Source: Pseudomonas sp. B21-056
GTDB lineage: Bacteria; Pseudomonadota; Gammaproteobacteria; Pseudomonadales; Pseudomonadaceae
Assembly: GCF_026016325.1 (NCBI RefSeq)
Contig: NZ_CP087203.1
Location: forward strand, 2,418,001 to 2,482,000
Direction of reading: 5' to 3'
Length of the DNA: 64,000 nucleotides
Made by a program: the position numbers and the translations under genes. Positions 7,013 to 44,547 of this stretch are shown piece by piece. Each line of letters opens with the position of its first letter. Positions within the stretch are counted from its first letter, which is position 1. Below the pieces are notes generated by a model. The model was not told the DNA's origin and made no database searches. It saw nothing but the letters and a program-made list of their open reading frames with translations.

Positions 7013-7127
7013 GGCGCTTCCCTCTGTTCTTGTCTTGGCCAGTGGGTAAATCGAGCGCAATGAAACCTCGGGCCAAAGCCCGTCAGGATCCGAACAGCGC
7101 CCGCCCACCGCGGGTTTGTTGATGATT

Positions 7128-7325
7128 GAGTCATGGGCCGGTCTCCGGGCTCACGAGGGGCAGGGCCTTGGCCTTGCCTGCAAGCGTCACCTTCCCATGC
7201 CATCGGGCACAGTGGTTCAGACGCTTCGCTCGCTTACCGTTGCGGGGGCAGCACCGGACTGACGTGGCCTTGAAGTAAAGCACACGATTCACCGGTTTCC
7301 CGTTTCACCCTGTGAAGGGCACCCA
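7128..7325 (-). promoter_or_regulatory. Cobalamin riboswitch controlling cbtB-cbtA-cobE-cobM
   Basis: Read on the minus strand, the leader has the cobalamin aptamer landmarks in order: GGGTGAAACGGGAA near the 5' end, AGTCCGGTGCTGCCCCCGCA, the B12-box-like GAACCACTGTGCC, GCATGGGAAGGTG, and the closing AGCCCGGAGACCGGCC. It ends ~115 nt upstream of cbtB. High B12 is expected to lower expression of cobalt uptake and corrin genes. Confidence 0.92.
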
Positions 7326-7387
7326 TTACTAGGCGCACAGGAGAGCATGGCTGGGGGTGGGGCGTCAATGAAACCGAGTCGGGGCCA

Positions 7388-7450: not shown

Positions 7451-7514
7451 TGGGGCCCGCTCATGCACCACCGAACCCGCAGACATTGACCCGCCCGCAC
7501 ACCCTGCGTAGCCT

Positions 7515-7706
7515 TGCGCCTTCGAGGTTCTTCGGTTTGCGCCGAAGCTAAGACGGGAACGCGGTCCAAGCCGCGGCTGCCCCCGCAACTGTGAACGGTG
7601 ACGTTCCTGCCAGGCCACTGTGCACGCAGCACGGGAAGGCGCAGGAATTGCCAGGGCTTTTTTGAAAAGCCGAGACCGGCCCGCCGTCAGCCAGGAGACC
7701 TGCCTC
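7515..7706 (+). promoter_or_regulatory. Cobalamin riboswitch controlling cobW-cobN
   Basis: On the plus strand the leader shows TTCGAGGTTCTTCGG, GCTAAGACGGGAACGCGGT, CGGCTGCCCCCGCAACTGTGA, the B12 box GCCAGGCCACTGTGC, CACGGGAAGGCGCAGG, and the closing GCCAGGAGACCTGCC. These are the standard cobalamin aptamer elements in order. The aptamer ends ~115 nt before cobW. A long open frame that reads through this leader is not coding. Confidence 0.93.
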
Positions 7707-7819
7707 GAGACAGATTCTCACTACAACCGGGCGGGGTGATCCGGTGGCGAAATCTTCCGCGCACGCCTGTGCCAGCGGTTGTCGTCCCGTTTGCCCGCCA
7801 TTTTGCCAAAGGGCATCCG

Positions 7820-8884
7820 ATGAAAACACTGGCCAAACTCCCCGTCACCATCGTCACCGGTTTCCTCGGCTCGGGTAAGACCACCTTACTGCGGCACATG
7901 CTCGACAACGCCCAGGGCCGGCGTATCGCAGTGATCGTCAACGAGTTCGGTGAGCTGGGCATTGACGGCGAGATCCTCAAGCAGTGCTCCATCGGTTGCA
8001 CCGAAGAAGAGGCTAACGGCCGCGTCTACGAACTGGCCAACGGCTGCCTGTGCTGCACGGTGCAGGAAGAGTTCTTCCCGGTGATGCGCGAGCTGGTGGC
8101 CCGGCGCGGCGACCTCGACCACATCCTCATCGAAACCTCCGGCCTGGCCTTGCCCAAGCCGCTGGTCCAGGCCTTTCAGTGGCCGGAAATCCGCAGCGCC
8201 TGCACCGTCGATGCGGTGATCACCGTGGTCGACAGCCCGGCCGTGGCCGCCGGCACCTTCGCCGCGTTCCCCGACCAGGTCGACGCCCAGCGTAAGCTCG
8301 ACCCGAACCTGGACCACGAATCCCCGCTGCACGAGTTGTTTGCCGATCAACTGGCGAGCGCCGACCTGGTAATCCTCAACAAGGCCGACCTGATCAGCCC
8401 CGAAGACCTGGCGAAAGTCCGCCTCGAAGTGGCCGAAGAACTGCCACCGGCGGTCAAGGTCATCGAAGCCAGCAGCGGCCGCCTGCCGTTGGAAGTGCTG
8501 ATCGGCCTGGGCGCCGGCTCCGAAGAACACATCGACAGCCGTCACAGCCATCACGACCACCACCATGACGGCGATGACGACGACCACGATCATGACGCCT
8601 TCGACTCCATCTCCATCGAACTGCCCCAGGCCGACGAAAGCCTGTTGCTGGACGCGCTGACCCAACTGGTGGTCCAGCACGGCGTGTTGCGGGTCAAGGG
8701 TTTCGCGGCGATCCCGAACAAGCCGATGCGCCTGTTGATCCAGGGCGTCGGCACGCGTTTCGACAAGCATTTCGACCGCCAATGGGGCGCCGATGAAGCG
8801 CGGGTCACGCGTCTGGTATTGATCGGCCAGGCGCTGGACGCGGCGCTGCTTGAAGCGCAGTTGCGCGCCGCCCTCAGCGTCTAA
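7820..8884 (+). CDS. cobW: CobW, metal-chaperone GTPase (COG0523)
   Basis: A GTPase of the COG0523 family, proposed to deliver or insert cobalt for cobaltochelatase. In the 354-residue protein the Walker A GFLGSGKTT is at 14-22 and the CxCC metal site (GCLCC) is at 76-79. NKAD, the GTP base-recognition motif, lies mid-protein. An acidic His-rich stretch rich in HH and DDDD spans ~237-260, and a CobW C-terminal domain follows. The ATG at 7820 is chosen because the upstream frame runs through the riboswitch. It lies 3 bp before cobN. Confidence 0.93.
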   Translation: MKTLAKLPVTIVTGFLGSGKTTLLRHMLDNAQGRRIAVIVNEFGELGIDGEILKQCSIGCTEEEANGRVYELANGCLCCTVQEEFFPVMRELVARRGDLDHILIETSGLALPKPLVQAFQWPEIRSACTVDAVITVVDSPAVAAGTFAAFPDQVDAQRKLDPNLDHESPLHELFADQLASADLVILNKADLISPEDLAKVRLEVAEELPPAVKVIEASSGRLPLEVLIGLGAGSEEHIDSRHSHHDHHHDGDDDDHDHDAFDSISIELPQADESLLLDALTQLVVQHGVLRVKGFAAIPNKPMRLLIQGVGTRFDKHFDRQWGADEARVTRLVLIGQALDAALLEAQLRAALSV

Positions 8885-11800: not shown

Positions 11801-12649
11801 CTGTTCGATGCGGCGGTACAGGCCGTAGCCGCGCTCGATGAGCCCGAGGACATGAACCCCCTGGCGGCCAAAGTACGGAATGAGCGGGAGGCCCTGTTGG
11901 CTTCGGGCCTCGAGGCGGACACCGCCGCCCGACAGGCCGGCTGGCGAATCTTCGGCGCCAAGCCCGGAGCTTATGGCGCGGGCGTGCAGGGTGCCATCGA
12001 CGGTCGCCTGTGGCAGAGCCGCGAAGACCTGGCCGAGGTGTACCTGAACTGGGGCGGCTATGCCTACGGCGGCGGCGATGAAGGCACCGCCGCGCGGGAT
12101 CAGTTTTCCCGGCGCTTGAGCCAGGTGCAGGCGGTGTTGCAGAACCAGGACAACCGCGAGCACGACCTGCTCGATTCCAACGATTACTACCAGTTCCAGG
12201 GCGGCATGCTGGCGGCGGTGGAAACTCTCGGTGGAAGTGCCGCGGCCAGTTACCACGGCGATCACAGCCAGCCGGACCTGCCCCGGATCCGCACCCTCAA
12301 GGAAGAACTCAACCGCGTCATCCGTTCCCGGGCGGCGAATCCGAAGTGGATCGACGGGGTCAAGCGTCACGGTTACAAAGGCGCGTTCGAACTGGCGGCG
12401 ACGGTGGACAACCTGTTCGCCTTCGACGCCACCACGCAACTGATCGACGATCACCAGTACGCCTTGCTGGCCGACGCCTACCTGCTTGATCCGGACACCC
12501 GGGACTTCGTCCGCCAGCACAACCCCGACGCCTTGCGCGATATGACCGAGCGCATGCTCGAAGCGCAGCAGCGGGGGATGTGGCAGGCGCCGGGGGCGTA
12601 TCGCGAGGCGTTGGAGAATCTGTTGCTCGACATCGAAGAAGATGGTTGA
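8888..12649 (+). CDS. cobN: Cobaltochelatase large subunit CobN
   Basis: ATP-dependent insertion of Co(II) into hydrogenobyrinate a,c-diamide. The 1253-residue length is normal for CobN. Family landmarks include LHGGIGYWRYG near residue 80, RIGNGVGLDTPA near 395, and the strongly conserved HVGKHGNLEWLPGKG near 550. GWRIFGAKPGAYGAGVQ and LNWGGYAYG appear in the C-terminal third. It starts 3 bp after cobW and is probably co-transcribed under the same riboswitch. The partner AAA+/VWA subunits are encoded just downstream by the frameshift locus. Confidence 0.95.
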   Translation: MHLLRTQPGGFVSDDNIADLGQTPAELVILCSGDSSLALLAEAARQLPDDYPQFRLANPMQVQNHASVDLYVEDVLRHAKVILLSLHGGIGYWRYGIERLMELAGRGVKLILVPGDDRPDPELSDLSNVPAADRDRLWQFLRQGGLGNALDLFHNLGSQWFGRDYTWAEPQALPRTAIYHPQKTSASLDDWRADWQADQPVAAVLFYRSHLQAANTAFIDVFCQRLQVAGLNPLPIAVASLKEPGCLTQVEDWLDEVKAGVILNTTGFAQSSPEAPHVRPFRRNIPVIQAICAQDNEPGWRASEQGLGPRDLAMHIALPELDGRIISRPISFKDMAWRSERSQSDVVCYRAVPERMDFVAQLARRWTELARLPNGQKRVALILANYPTRDGRIGNGVGLDTPAAALNMLRAMRDEGYPLPAELPASGTALIQQLLGGVSNDLDSLDLRPCHQSLALDAYQAMFDALPEANRQAVLERWGSPEADPMFRAGRLMIAGLRLGLTFVGIQPARGYQVDPSAVYHDPDLVPPHGYLAFYFWLRHTYGAHGVIHVGKHGNLEWLPGKGVGLSESCWPDALLGPLPNIYPFIVNDPGEGAQAKRRTQAVIIDHLMPPLTRAETYGPLRNLELLADEYYEAQLLDPRRARELQRDILNLVRETHIDRELQLDADADAAIWLPRLDTYLCDLKESQIRDGLHIFGESPSGRLRIDTLLALLRIPRGDGKGAQSSLLRALSKAFGLGFDPLDCALADPWAGACPAALRQVSDEPWRTAGDTRERLELFAASLIEQALEGGVEQLQAPGWQDVSGIIESLRSVVAPRLDACGPAEMRGLLDALSGRFVPAGPSGAPSRGRLDVLPTGRNFFSVDVRNLPTTTAWRIGFQSANLILERHLQDQGDHLRQLGLSVWGTATMRTGGDDIAQAMALMGVRPVWATGSQRVDDFEILPLSLLDRPRVDVTLRVSGFFRDAFANLIRLFDAAVQAVAALDEPEDMNPLAAKVRNEREALLASGLEADTAARQAGWRIFGAKPGAYGAGVQGAIDGRLWQSREDLAEVYLNWGGYAYGGGDEGTAARDQFSRRLSQVQAVLQNQDNREHDLLDSNDYYQFQGGMLAAVETLGGSAAASYHGDHSQPDLPRIRTLKEELNRVIRSRAANPKWIDGVKRHGYKGAFELAATVDNLFAFDATTQLIDDHQYALLADAYLLDPDTRDFVRQHNPDALRDMTERMLEAQQRGMWQAPGAYREALENLLLDIEEDG

Positions 12650-12681
12650 TGTGCACCGTCAGTTGGCCATGTGCAGAACCT

Positions 12682-12809
12682 GTGGCGAGGGGATTTATCC
12701 CCGTTGGATCGCAACGCGATCCCCTATCGGCCCGCCTCGGTGTGTCAGTTTCACCAAGTGATATTTTGGGGCTGCTGCGCAGCCCAGCGGGGATAAATCC
12801 CCTCGCCAC
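12682..12809. repeat. Family A intergenic inverted repeat, copy 2
   Basis: GTGGCGAGGGGATTTATCCC opens the element and GGGATAAATCCCCTCGCCAC closes it. GGGGCTGCTGCGCAGCCC lies just inside the right arm. The element separates cobN from the chlD-like gene within one strand, so it may lower read-through between them. Confidence 0.85.
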
Positions 12810-12855
12810 AAGCTCTCTCCAAACCGACTTTACCGACCACCTTTGAGAATCGACC

Positions 12856-13860
12856 ATGACCGACACCCCCCATTTCCCGCTCTCCGCCGTGGTCGGCGCC
12901 GATGACTTGAAACTGGCCCTGTGCCTGGCCGCCATCGATCCGAAAATCGGCGGCGTGCTGATCGAAGGTCCTCGCGGCATGGCCAAGTCGACCCTGGCCC
13001 GGGGCCTTGCCGATCTGCTGGCCAGCGGTCAGTTCGTCACCTTGCCCTTGGGCACCACCGAAGAACGACTGGTGGGCACCCTCGATCTGGACGCCGCCCT
13101 GGGGGAAGGGCGCGCGCAGTTCTCTCCCGGTGTGCTGGCCAAGGCCGACGGTGGCGTGTTGTACGTCGATGAAGTGAACCTGCTGCCCGATCACCTGGTG
13201 GACCTGCTGTTGGATGTGGCCGCCAGCGGCACCAACCTGATCGAGCGCGACGGTATTTCCCATCGGCATCCGGCGCGTTTCGTGCTGATCGGCACCATGA
13301 ACCCGGAAGAGGGCGAGCTGCGCCCGCAGTTGCTCGACCGGTTTGGCCTGAACGTGGCCCTCGACGGCCATACCGCGCCGACCGAACGCGGGCAGATCAT
13401 TCGGCGGCGGTTGGATTTCGACAATGATCCGACGGCCTTTTGTGCTGAGTGGGAGACGGCCCAGAGCCAATTGCGCGAACGCTGCCAGAACGCTCGCGAA
13501 CGGTTGCAGCAGATTCCCCTGGATGATCAGGCCTTGGCACAGATCACCGAGCGTTGCTTCGCCGCCGGGGTCGATGGCTTGCGCGCCGACCTGGTCTGGC
13601 TGCGGGCCGCACGGGCCCATGCGGCCTGGCGCGGGGCGCAGGTTATTGCCGCCGAGGACATCGATGCGGTCGCCGAGTTTGCCTTGCGCCACCGCCGGCG
13701 AGGGCACTGCGCCCCGGCGCCTTCGCCGTCCCAGGCCCCTTCGGCCGGTGACCGTACCGCCGAACCGAGCGAAGGCCAGGGCCAGTGGGGCGATCTGCCG
13801 GCCCAGGCGCTGTCGACCGGTGCCCGGCGTGAAGTACCGAGCTGGCCAAAAAAGCCCTAG
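12856..13860 (+). CDS. AAA+ ATPase subunit of magnesium/cobalt chelatase family (ChlI/CobS-like), zero-frame product
   Basis: A 334-residue AAA+ protein of the BchI/ChlI/BchD-N family. The N-terminal IEGPRGMAKSTLARGLA is the P-loop region with MAKST in place of the classical GKS/T. VDEVNLLPDH is the Walker B plus helix-2 insert, followed by GTMNPEEGELRPQLLDRFGL (sensor 1/arginine finger region). A Pro/Gly-rich linker begins at ~295. Translation stops at TAG 13858-13860, only 4 nt after a slippery A_AAA_AAG. It should work with CobN in place of CobS, because no cobS/cobT gene is seen here. Confidence 0.9.
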   Translation: MTDTPHFPLSAVVGADDLKLALCLAAIDPKIGGVLIEGPRGMAKSTLARGLADLLASGQFVTLPLGTTEERLVGTLDLDAALGEGRAQFSPGVLAKADGGVLYVDEVNLLPDHLVDLLLDVAASGTNLIERDGISHRHPARFVLIGTMNPEEGELRPQLLDRFGLNVALDGHTAPTERGQIIRRRLDFDNDPTAFCAEWETAQSQLRERCQNARERLQQIPLDDQALAQITERCFAAGVDGLRADLVWLRAARAHAAWRGAQVIAAEDIDAVAEFALRHRRRGHCAPAPSPSQAPSAGDRTAEPSEGQGQWGDLPAQALSTGARREVPSWPKKP

Positions 13861-14525
13861 GCATTCGCCCCCGTTCGCTCGCGGGGGCGAATGCCAGACC
13901 CCGTGCCGGGCGGTTGGAGCAGGGACGCCAGGGCCGTAGCAAAGCCGCGGCCAGCGGCGTGGTGAACTGGCCGGGGACATTGCTCAACGGTCGTCCGAAC
14001 CTGCGTGAAGACCTGCGTTGGCACGCACGTCACCGCTCGTCCCATGAGCTCTGGCTGGTGATTGTCGACGCGTCGGCCTCGACCCGTCGTCATCGGGCCT
14101 TGAGCGATGGCAAGGGCCTGCTGGCGCAGCTGTTCGACGACGCTTACCGGCAGCGCGCCCGGTTGGCGCTGCTGACGGCCAGCGGTAGCGTTCCGAACTG
14201 GCAGGTGCAGGGGCTCAAGGCCTCGGCCGGGCTTCGGGATTGGCTCGACGGGCTGGGCGCCGCGGGTGGTACGCCGTTGCTGGCGGCGCTGAATGAGGCA
14301 GGGCGCTGGCTGGTGGCCCGGCGCAAGCGCTATCCGGCGGAGCAGCAGCGGGTGTTGCTGATGACGGACGGCCGGGTGAAGGAGGGCTTGTCACTGCCGC
14401 CACTCGATTGCCCGTGTTTGTTGATCGACATCGAGCGAGGTCCGATCCGGCTGGGCCGGGCTCGGCAGTTGGCGGGGCAGTTGGGGGCTGAGTATCGGCA
14501 TATCGATGATGGGGTATCTGGCTGA
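12856..14525 (+). CDS. BchD/ChlD-like AAA+/VWA chelatase subunit made by -1 frameshift at 13848-13854
   Basis: If ribosomes slip -1 on A_AAA_AAG, the AAA+ protein continues in the next frame as KKALGIRPRSLAG and then a VWA domain, giving about 556 residues, as in full-length BchD/ChlD. The downstream part has an intact MIDAS: DASAS at the first strand, GGTPL, and TDGR. The -1 frame is open from 13833 to 14525 and contains no ATG with a ribosome site before the VWA core. A perfect 13-bp hairpin starts 6 nt after the slippery site. Two subunits from one gene would replace separate CobS and CobT. The frameshift itself is inferred. Confidence 0.78.
13848..13894 (+). promoter_or_regulatory. Programmed -1 frameshift signal (slippery heptamer plus hairpin)
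   Basis: AAAAAAG at 13848-13854 is phased as A_AAA_AAG relative to the zero frame (CCA AAA AAG). The TAG stop is at 13858-13860. The hairpin arms GCATTCGCCCCCG (13861-13873) and CGGGGGCGAATGC (13882-13894) pair perfectly around an 8-nt loop. The 6-nt spacer matches dnaX-type signals. No strong upstream Shine-Dalgarno stimulator is evident. Confidence 0.8.
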
Positions 14526-14549
14526 TCTCCATTGGCTGGTCGGGCCCCA

Positions 14550-14622
14550 TCGCGAGCAGGCTCGCTCCCACATGGGATGTGCTGTGAATCACGGCTCCCT
14601 GTGGGAGCGAGCCTGCTCGCGA
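14550..14622. repeat. Family B (REP-type) inverted pair, copy 2
   Basis: TCGCGAGCAGGCTCGCTCCCAC and GTGGGAGCGAGCCTGCTCGCGA arms lie after the chlD-like locus and before the PLD gene. Confidence 0.85.
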
Positions 14623-14702
14623 TAGCATCACCTCGGTACTCGATCTGCCAACCCCAACTGGATCGCTGTTCTATGCTGAGGCAACTTCACAAGGAGTGAA
14701 CC

Positions 14703-16349
14703 ATGCGCCTACTCGCCACCAACCCCCAGGACGATTTTCGGGTCAAGGCCTATGCCGGCACCAACGGTGTGCTGCTCGCCATGGACCTGGCCGAACCCCG
14801 GCGCAAGGGCCTGCTGGGGTTTGCCATCGAGAAACAGCAGGGCGACAAGCCCTGGCTGTTCCTGTTCAACAGCCTGACCTTCCCCGACAAGGCCCACACC
14901 TTCCCACAGTTCCACGCCACCCCCAGCGATAAGGCGCCTTTGCAGAAATTTCGCTGGGCCGATTACGCCGTCAATCCTGGTGTGACCATCCACTACCGCG
15001 TGCACCTGGCCTATGGCAGTCCCGATGCGCCGCAGTTGGGCGAGTCCCTCGAGGTCACGGTCACCAGTGATAACGGCCAACCGGCCAACCAGCGAGTGAT
15101 CTTCAATCGGGCCGTGGCCGCCAGCCAGGCATTCCAGCGCAAGTTTCCCGAGCTGGACGCGTTGATCAGTGCCAACCGCAACCTGTCCATCGACGACTGG
15201 CCCGAAGCGCCGCGTCGCTGGCTGGAGAACGGTCTGCTGGGACGCCTGACCGGCTTCATCGACCGGGCGTTGGATGCCACCTGGGCCCTGGATGTCGCCA
15301 TCTACGAGTACGAATTGCCGGTGATCGTCGATGCGGTGAATGCCGCTTTCACCCGTGGCGCCCAGGTGCGGGTGCTGTACCACGCCGAACCGGGCGACGA
15401 CACCACGCTGCGCAACGAAGCCAGTCTCGAAAAACTGCCGGCGGCCAACAAGCGCGGGCGGGTGACCCAAAGCATTTTCCACGACAAGTTCATCGTCTTG
15501 AGCAAGGTAGATGGCGGTGGTGCGTTGCACCCCGAGGCCGTGCTCTGCGGCAGCACCAATTTCACCGCCAACGGTGTCTACCGCCAGGCCAATGTCGTTC
15601 ACGTGCTGGACGATCCGCGGGTGAGCGACAGCTATCGCCAGGTGTTCGAGCAGATCTGGGCCGCCCCGCAGGACGTCGATGCCACGCGCCAGTGGCTGAC
15701 CCAGCGCAATCCCATGGACCCGCAGGAGCCCTTGTTCGTCGGGTTTTCGCCGCGCACGGGCGAAGGCGACCTGGACCGCTTCGTCGACATCATCAATGCC
15801 GCGCGCAAGGACCTGTTGTTCGTCACCGCCTTCGTCCTGCCCGACCGGATCCTCGACGCCTTGCTCGGCCAGCCCAACGACGACGTCCTGCGCTATGGCC
15901 TGCAAAACACCACCAGTCGCATCACCGGATTCCATGCCGACCGCACCGCCGAATTCGCCGCCACCGCGCTGCTCAACACCGGGCTGGAAGGCTGGCTCAG
16001 GGAAAACATGAAAGGCCAGAAGGGCAACCTGCTGGTGCACACCAAAGCCATCGTCACCGACTTCACCAGCGACACGCCGACCATCATCAGCGGCAGCCAC
16101 AACCTCAGCGCCGCGGCCAGCAGCAATAACGATGAAAACTACCTCATCATCCAGGGCGACACCGACCTGGCCGACCGCTACGGGCTGGAACTGCTGCGTT
16201 TCTACGAGCATTACCGCTTTCGGTATTTTGCGAAGAAGCTTGCGCTCAAGCAGGTCAAGCCGTTGGCGGTGGATGACAGCTGGAGTGACGATTATTACCG
16301 CGACGGGGATCTGCGGATGTTGTCGAGGGTGAGGTTTTGTGGGCGCTGA
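14703..16349 (+). CDS. Phospholipase D-like (HKD) domain protein
   Basis: A 548-residue cytosolic-looking protein with no signal peptide. Two PLD-type repeats lie in the C-terminal two thirds. The first motif region, at His260, reads HDKFIVLS...GSTNFTANG: His and Lys are kept, but the usual Asp is replaced by Ser. The second, at His446, reads HTKAIVTD...GSHNLSAAA and has the full HxKx4D. The N-terminal ~150 residues look like a beta domain. PLD-superfamily members cleave phosphodiesters of lipids or nucleic acids, and the substrate cannot be told here. Its ATG follows AAGGAG. It stands alone, with no neighbouring immunity or secretion gene to mark it as an effector. Confidence 0.8.
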   Translation: MRLLATNPQDDFRVKAYAGTNGVLLAMDLAEPRRKGLLGFAIEKQQGDKPWLFLFNSLTFPDKAHTFPQFHATPSDKAPLQKFRWADYAVNPGVTIHYRVHLAYGSPDAPQLGESLEVTVTSDNGQPANQRVIFNRAVAASQAFQRKFPELDALISANRNLSIDDWPEAPRRWLENGLLGRLTGFIDRALDATWALDVAIYEYELPVIVDAVNAAFTRGAQVRVLYHAEPGDDTTLRNEASLEKLPAANKRGRVTQSIFHDKFIVLSKVDGGGALHPEAVLCGSTNFTANGVYRQANVVHVLDDPRVSDSYRQVFEQIWAAPQDVDATRQWLTQRNPMDPQEPLFVGFSPRTGEGDLDRFVDIINAARKDLLFVTAFVLPDRILDALLGQPNDDVLRYGLQNTTSRITGFHADRTAEFAATALLNTGLEGWLRENMKGQKGNLLVHTKAIVTDFTSDTPTIISGSHNLSAAASSNNDENYLIIQGDTDLADRYGLELLRFYEHYRFRYFAKKLALKQVKPLAVDDSWSDDYYRDGDLRMLSRVRFCGR

Positions 16350-44330: not shown

Positions 44331-44372
44331 TGAAAAAACAAAACCCCCGGTCGGGAGGCCGACCGGGGGTTT
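44331..44372 (-). terminator. Attenuator terminator in the DAHP synthase leader
   Basis: The perfect arms CCCCCGGTCGG and CCGACCGGGGG surround a GAGG loop (44344-44369), extended by AAA/TTT pairs. On the minus strand they are followed by TTTTGTTTTTT. It starts ~47 nt after the stop of the distal leader peptide, the geometry of amino-acid attenuators. Confidence 0.85.
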
Positions 44373-44418
44373 ATGAACTCTGGAAGGCGACCCGTTTAAA
44401 GTGGGCGCCGGTTGGGTA

Positions 44419-44547
44419 TCAGGCGCGCCAGTGGCTAAACCAATACCCAAAATAAAAGTTGACCGGAGCAGCAACGCCGTTCACCCGGACAGCCGCAACC
44501 GAGCGCGGGGCGCTGACGGGTTGAAGTTGTGAGAGGGCGTTGAACAT
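44419..44547 (-). CDS. Distal aromatic-rich leader peptide of the DAHP synthase gene
   Basis: A 42-residue ORF ending FYFGYWFSHW-RA, with seven aromatic residues among ten codons (31-40). CGGAGA precedes its ATG at 44545-44547. The Phe-Gly-Tyr-Trp codons lie in an 8-bp perfect stem TTGGGTAT/ATACCCAA (44412-44419 with 44443-44450) that spans the stop codon. The downstream arm continues into AACCGG, which can pair with CCGGTCGG of the terminator. This is a classical 1:2, 2:3, 3:4 attenuator layout. Confidence 0.75.
   Translation of the reverse strand: MFNALSQLQPVSAPRSVAAVRVNGVAAPVNFYFGYWFSHWRA

Follow-up and report, generated by a model that had tools for sequence, protein, structure and literature searches.

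Among the genes for which programmed -1 ribosomal frameshifting has been proposed are the fs-chlD genes of the magnesium chelatase family, which Antonov reportedly treated in MBE in 2020. Twenty-three Mg-chelatase frameshift genes are recorded from six genera, Pseudomonas among them, and three cassettes of this gene family shifted at 63, 40, and 10% in E. coli (Antonov 2013, PMC3711429). Section 18 of a later account describes the Pseudomonas A_AAA_AAR site as being under purifying selection and prints the stem of P. protegens, calling the stem sequence not strongly conserved (Atkins 2016, PMC5009743). fs-chlD has also been treated as the source of both Co-chelatase subunits (Kuznetsov 2022, PMC9227772). 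The idea that chlD frameshifting yields two cobalt-chelatase subunits, which an earlier note on the DNA studied here also brought up, is indeed in the literature (PMC9227772).

The gene analyzed here lies in a 64-kb window, i.e., the whole stretch of DNA under study, of a Pseudomonas genome that consists of a single 6.45-Mb contig. Since the frameshift has been published for Pseudomonas (PMC3711429, PMC5009743), this gene adds one more example to those already described. Gene family, -1 shift, A-rich site, structure, and CobN are all shared with the fs-chlD genes as described in PMC3711429 and PMC9227772. The tested cassettes presented in PMC3711429 have A runs of 11, 9, and 7, whereas the window has A6G and a strong stem; this is no difference in kind, but none of those cassettes combines A6G with a stem, which weighs against the frameshift reading. 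Both the window and P. protegens, as shown in section 18 of PMC5009743, have an A_AAA_AAR site and the same CTAGGCAT start. The two stems are nearly identical (GGCATCCGCCCCC in P. protegens, GGCATTCGCCCCC in the window) and differ by one compensatory change from a C-G to a U-A pair and in the loop. Relative to the sections of these three reports on which we draw, we add comparatively little, namely counts of how often the signal is conserved, evidence of stem covariation, and a tentative lead on two frame-splitting devices.

E. coli dnaX (tau/gamma) likewise combines A_AAA_AAG, a downstream stem, and the specification of two AAA+ subunits of one complex by one gene. However, the shifted dnaX product is the short one (PMC3711429), whereas in fs-chlD it would be the long one, and the dnaX-style upstream Shine-Dalgarno stimulator is absent from the window (-2.2 kcal/mol). 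The fs-chlD products would share with CobS and CobT the proposed role of small and medium subunits beside CobN, but they are of the ChlI and ChlD types by sequence, and a profile search of both frames returned no match to TIGR01650 or TIGR01651.

Reading frames and their junction

We hold it highly probable, at about nine in ten, that in this chlD-type gene a programmed -1 ribosomal frameshift at A_AAA_AAG joins the two frames, the gene thereby encoding cobaltochelatase subunits of 334 and 556 aa. Translation without a shift would end at the TAG and yield the shorter, ChlI-like AAA+ subunit. Slipping of two Lys-tRNAs from AAA AAG to AAA AAA would instead carry the ribosome into the -1 frame and yield the longer, ChlD-like subunit, in which a VWA/MIDAS domain follows the shared AAA+ module. 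The hairpin 5 nt downstream of the heptamer is the predicted stimulator of the slip. Both products are predicted to act as the motor of the cobaltochelatase CobN, whose gene directly precedes fs-chlD (Table 1). The earlier note had interpreted the locus in this way; heptamer conservation and stem covariation support it, the shift itself being a prediction.

Table 1. Positions in the window of fs-chlD, its junction elements, and the upstream genes
Feature	Position	Strand	Basis or remark
Cobalamin riboswitch upstream of cobW-cobN-chlD	7508..7721	+	Rfam RF00174, 114.4 bits, E 6.2e-28
cobW	7820..8884	+	TIGR02475, E 1.9e-159, over cut-off
cobN, large cobaltochelatase subunit, 1253 aa	8888..12649	+	TIGR02257, 1729 bits, over cut-off
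fs-chlD zero frame, ChlI-like AAA+ protein, 334 aa, ATG start, TAG stop	12856..13860	+	
-1 frame, open, VWA domain, ChlD-like	13833..14525	+	stop at 14523-14525
Slippery heptamer A_AAA_AAG	13848-13854	+	sequence; in 89/92 readable genus junctions
Zero-frame stop TAG	13858..13860	+	10 nt after heptamer's first base
Stem 5' arm, 14 bp	13860..13873	+	sequence, fold, alignment
Stem 3' arm, 14 bp	13882..13895	+	sequence, fold, alignment
TTG, nearest possible -1 frame start, position not conserved	13914..13916	+	
MIDAS motif DASAS in -1 frame	14067-14081	+	

In profile searches, the zero frame matches the N part of TIGR02442 (E 8.5e-123) as well as TIGR02030 (E 2.6e-102), in each case below the whole-protein cut-off, and contains AAA_lid_2 and AAA_5 domains; the ChlI structure PDB 6l8d matches it as well (E 3.2e-84). 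The length of 334 aa that the earlier note gave for the short subunit stands, whereas its label "CobS-like" gives way to ChlI/BchI and TIGR02442 matches in the absence of TIGR01650. The -1 frame, which overlaps the zero frame over 25 nt upstream of the stop, holds VWA_2 (E 2.2e-6) and the C part of TIGR02442 (E 1.6e-19), and its sole match to a solved structure is the BchD chain PDB 2x31 (E 8.3e-7). ChlI-like AAA+ and VWA parts thus occupy two frames related by -1, the second being open into an intact VWA domain as had been noticed at the outset. Joining the pre-slip portion of the zero frame to the -1 frame gives a predicted ChlD-like fusion whose computed length, 556 aa, agrees with the earlier estimate. 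Among 80 listed loci, a set that may leave out records of the window's own genome, the protein finds its closest named relatives in Pseudomonas sp. ICMP22404 and PSB18 (95%) and in P. kilonensis (90%).

The zero frame ends in CCA AAA AAG CCC TAG, with the heptamer in the phase that the earlier note had assigned to it. AAAAAAG alone is not rare, occurring 11 times in the window against 3.8 expected, so that the argument is carried by its phase and position here together with the stem and the conservation. From the G of the TAG onward, GGCATTCGCCCCCG and CGGGGGCGAATGCC form a stem of 14 bp with an 8-nt loop. A perfect stem with this loop had been noticed before but slightly understated at 13 bp and a distance of 6 nt; the outer pair adds one base pair and brings the distance to 5 nt. 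The fold of 13848-13910 reaches -37.6 kcal/mol (z -4.97), and 0 of 200 shuffles are as stable. No terminator was called at the stem; the sole terminator-like site within 12500-14800 lies at 13410-13433, with 1.4 expected.

Heptamer and stem across the genus

Conservation was assessed in an even sample of 99 Pseudomonas genomes, the source genome included. The N part of the gene, counted as present at an E value of 1e-90 or better, occurs in 93 of them, and as one gene runs off its contig end (L094), 92 junctions are readable. A_AAA_AAG, a form of the A_AAA_AAR site, stands before an open -1 frame at 89 of these. Its lack at the other three (L031 in G052, L092 in G080, and L093 in G034) is a point against the frameshift reading, albeit one confined to genes with further frame breaks; cobN is fragmented too in G052 and G034, and these three loci may reflect decay or poor sequence. 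A second collection, comprising in part the same species, has the -1 relation with A_AAA_AAG in 64 among the 80 loci listed, the rest being A_AAA_AAA (three, Caballeronia), single-frame (eight), or unscorable (five). A homopolymer at a frame break could betray a sequencing error or a pseudogene. Recurrence of the same break and phase in 89/92 and 64/80 listed loci rules out an error at the A run, and Walker A, Walker B, and MIDAS motifs, identified by pattern matching, are intact in 89/89 genus copies, so that the chance of either is negligible.

The -1 frame is open over 219-251 codons in all 89 copies. Frame overlap upstream of the zero-frame stop is often longer than in the window (median 91 nt, range 16-1000, 60 nt or less in 25/89). 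A_AAA_AAG falls within this overlap in 89/89 copies, which were selected by the heptamer; four other slippery-type heptamers occur there, once each. The stop begins 10 nt after the heptamer's first base in 86 copies, 28 nt in two, and 7 nt in one; it reads TAG in 56 copies, TGA in 30, and TAA in 3. In two copies (L043 and L047), CAG replaces the usual TAG and the zero frame stops 18 nt later, within the hairpin, with the heptamer retained. Other Lys codons of the genus copies are AAG in 638 cases versus AAA in 333. Therefore, AAA AAG is not merely the usual spelling of Lys in these genes.

An A run at the junction also brings transcriptional slippage to mind, in which RNA polymerase adds or drops an A and the resulting two mRNAs specify two products. 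Relatives from the order and class with 9-10 As, mostly with no stem at the expected spacing, would suit such polymerase slipping. However, the criterion used in PMC3711429 for poly-A is a run longer than 7, whereas the window has 6 As and the genus exactly 6 in 87/89 copies and 7 in two, which makes transcriptional slipping unlikely here. Phase, stop distance, and a co-varying RNA stem are, moreover, needs of ribosomal slipping, and we regard the polymerase alternative as very improbable.

Alternatively, the VWA protein could be a separate gene product, starting alone or by termination-reinitiation past the TAG. The zero-frame stop and the second frame are indeed close, RefSeq annotated such genes as two adjacent ones (PMC3711429), and the window TTG begins 54 nt past the last base of the stop. 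This TTG had been pointed out in the earlier note as the nearest initiator and as lacking a ribosome site; it is present, and no site is visible by eye. In 65/89 copies, the -1 frame has no ATG, GTG, or TTG among its initial 25 codons, and those found within 50 codons in 76/89 copies lie mostly inside the conserved domain. We rejected an independent start, since no start codon is conserved among the 89 copies. Separate genes would also leave the conserved heptamer and stem unexplained, and are in our judgment extremely improbable.

The homologue alignment that the earlier note had proposed as a check bears on the stem as much as on the heptamer. Gap-free stems of 5-16 bp start 5 nt (53 copies) or 6 nt (34) past the heptamer in 87/89 copies. 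An alignment of 79/89 genus rows (A1) was used for pair statistics and excludes ten rows that are divergent or differ in loop length (L055, L056, L060, L062-L065, L068, L080, and L091). Across these 79 rows, 89.5% of the cells of the named 14-pair stem are paired, against 33-50% when one arm is slid by 1-3 columns. The clearest column pair, 18/43, has C-G 39, U-A 25, and U-G 8 times with zero mismatches. Six stem pairs show changes on both sides, a number reached by 4/500 shuffles, and 0/500 match the covariation score; these shuffles ignore kinship. Weaker pairs are the outermost (unpaired in 26/72 rows) and the three innermost (17-19/72), and the RNAalifold consensus on A1 is shorter, with 8 pairs, the counts given here referring to the named 14-pair structure. 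Downstream fold z is not below -2 in 15/89 genus copies. With hairpin energies at 99 control positions averaging -10.4 kcal/mol (5th percentile -20.9), energy at the expected spacing does not by itself set every copy apart from the GC-rich background. The inner stem of L156 and the whole stem of L157 differ from those in the window, the spacing being the same. L091, an A6G locus with a genus label, has a 7-bp stem at 9 nt. Shine-Dalgarno-like pairing at -6 or lower is found in 19/89 copies versus 5.4% of 890 control positions, and an upstream stimulator of this kind may act in a minority of copies.

Codon constraint, with z values between about 2 and 3.7, is raised at a limited set of positions: the final Ser and Pro codons ahead of the heptamer; codons 0, 2, and 4 downstream of it; codons 9 and 11-13, which fall within the 3' arm; and codon 15. 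Other codons nearby show no such rise. This profile is pertinent to the suggestion in section 18 of PMC5009743 that the stimulator is a triplex with a bound divalent cation. Fluorescens-type copies, with one C-rich and one G-rich arm, would fit such a structure. Against it, the constraint fades within about two codons past the 3' arm, and arms of mixed composition occur in several relatives that carry this heptamer too (for example, L157, CACGGCAGCC, 50% pyrimidine; L118, TGCAACGA, 38%). The comparative data thus do not require a triplex, to which we assign a small chance, and we favor the hairpin as the predicted stimulator of frameshifting.

Gene neighbourhood and other chelatase subunits

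fs-chlD belongs to a gene group behind a cobalamin riboswitch (Table 1; we placed the start of cobW inside the ORF 7598-8884), and co-transcription would extend to chlD. The cobN-chlD gap holds a 33-nt inverted repeat, 91% complementary, at 12675-12816, which by eye resembles a Pseudomonas REP-type element and might affect read-through into chlD. A second cobalamin riboswitch at 7119-7341 (-) points away from the one on the forward strand and faces ORFs that resemble, by eye, the cobalt transport gene CbtA and the precorrin methyltransferase CobM. Elsewhere in the window, the Pseudomonas sRNA P15 (Rfam RF00627) maps to 44344-44461 (-).

Presence of the N part (E 1e-90 or better) and of CobN (over the family cut-off) agrees in 99/99 genomes, 93 having both and 6 neither, with kinship ignored. 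A CobN match is absent from G014, G041, G042, and G069, and G060 and G082 have only distant, sub-cut-off matches. A profile search of the source genome retrieved no CobS or CobT match, and its best other ChlI-like match is 5.4e-10 at 30% identity; cobN is thus accompanied by no separate small-subunit gene. These associations suggest that the fs-chlD products would assemble with CobN, with cobalt as the presumed substrate. CobS/CobT-like pairs, which score above 400 bits for CobS and above 230 bits for CobT but in every case below the family cut-offs, occur in 7/99 genomes. Four of these (G013, G015, G038, and G054) keep the frameshift signal, which therefore need not be the sole source of the small subunit there. 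The other three (G041, G042, and G060) miss both fs-chlD and an over-cut-off CobN; hence, their pair may serve another task, possibly in a different complex.

Split and single-frame relatives outside the genus

In the order, 25 loci were read: 9 have an A run and frames split by -1, 14 are single-frame, and 2 (L123 and L124) resemble separate BchI genes. The split loci have A6G (L100, L101, L106, and L118), A9-10 (L102, L104, L105, and L110), or A7 (L120); the single-frame chlD relatives are L103, L107-L109, L111-L117, L119, L121, and L122. Among the 14 single-frame genomes, a CobS-like match is strong in G153 and weaker in G104 (114 bits), and the best second ChlI-like match is 4.5e-11 at 31% identity. 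Since most of these genomes have no CobS-like or close ChlI-like match, a short subunit made separately is perhaps dispensable. One 0.4-Mb genome (G228) retains a single-frame chlD relative (L136) with many A runs in its linker. On a tree of 72 rows, 13 of them from the 89 genus loci, the split label changes five times, at least three changes being forced by well-supported branches; this tree leaves out a duplicate (L101), the BchI-type loci (L123, L124, and L138-L143), and the sole +1 case (L131).

Outside Pseudomonadaceae, copies with A6-7 have a stem at 4-8 nt in 7/7 cases (-10.5 to -25.8 kcal/mol; control mean -10.4), whereas 6/7 copies with A9-10 have no stem or one of -3.9 or weaker, L129 being the exception at -21.5. 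The contrast (7 versus 7, "no stem" taken as 0, kinship ignored; L091, L242, L243, L250, and L251 outside the comparison) gives a Mann-Whitney p of 0.010. The L120 stem equals the control mean, and the long-run L110 (z -2.15) and L166 (z -3.88) fold well, though not at the stem spacing. As only 4/7 short-run copies stand out with z below -2 (L132, L133, L134, and L157), this contrast is a lead rather than a result. It is conceivable, though we lean against it, that chlD frames split more than once in the order by two devices, one being A6-7 followed by a hairpin at a distance of 5-6 nt and the other A9-10 with no hairpin at that place. On this tentative joint reading, the A6-7 type, which is that of Pseudomonas, would represent ribosomal slipping, and the A9-10 type, nested among single-frame relatives, might represent polymerase or unaided slipping.

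Covariation and the genus-wide count back the published case of one bacterial gene likely encoding two metal chelatase subunits. Since the two products would have an AAA+ module in common, the subunit stoichiometry of the B12 cobaltochelatase would be governed by the slip rate. If the contrast between stem-type and long-A-type relatives holds, they allow ribosomal slipping to be compared with transcriptional slipping in nature, and if the two-device reading were true, one gene would have found two independent molecular answers to the need for two subunits.
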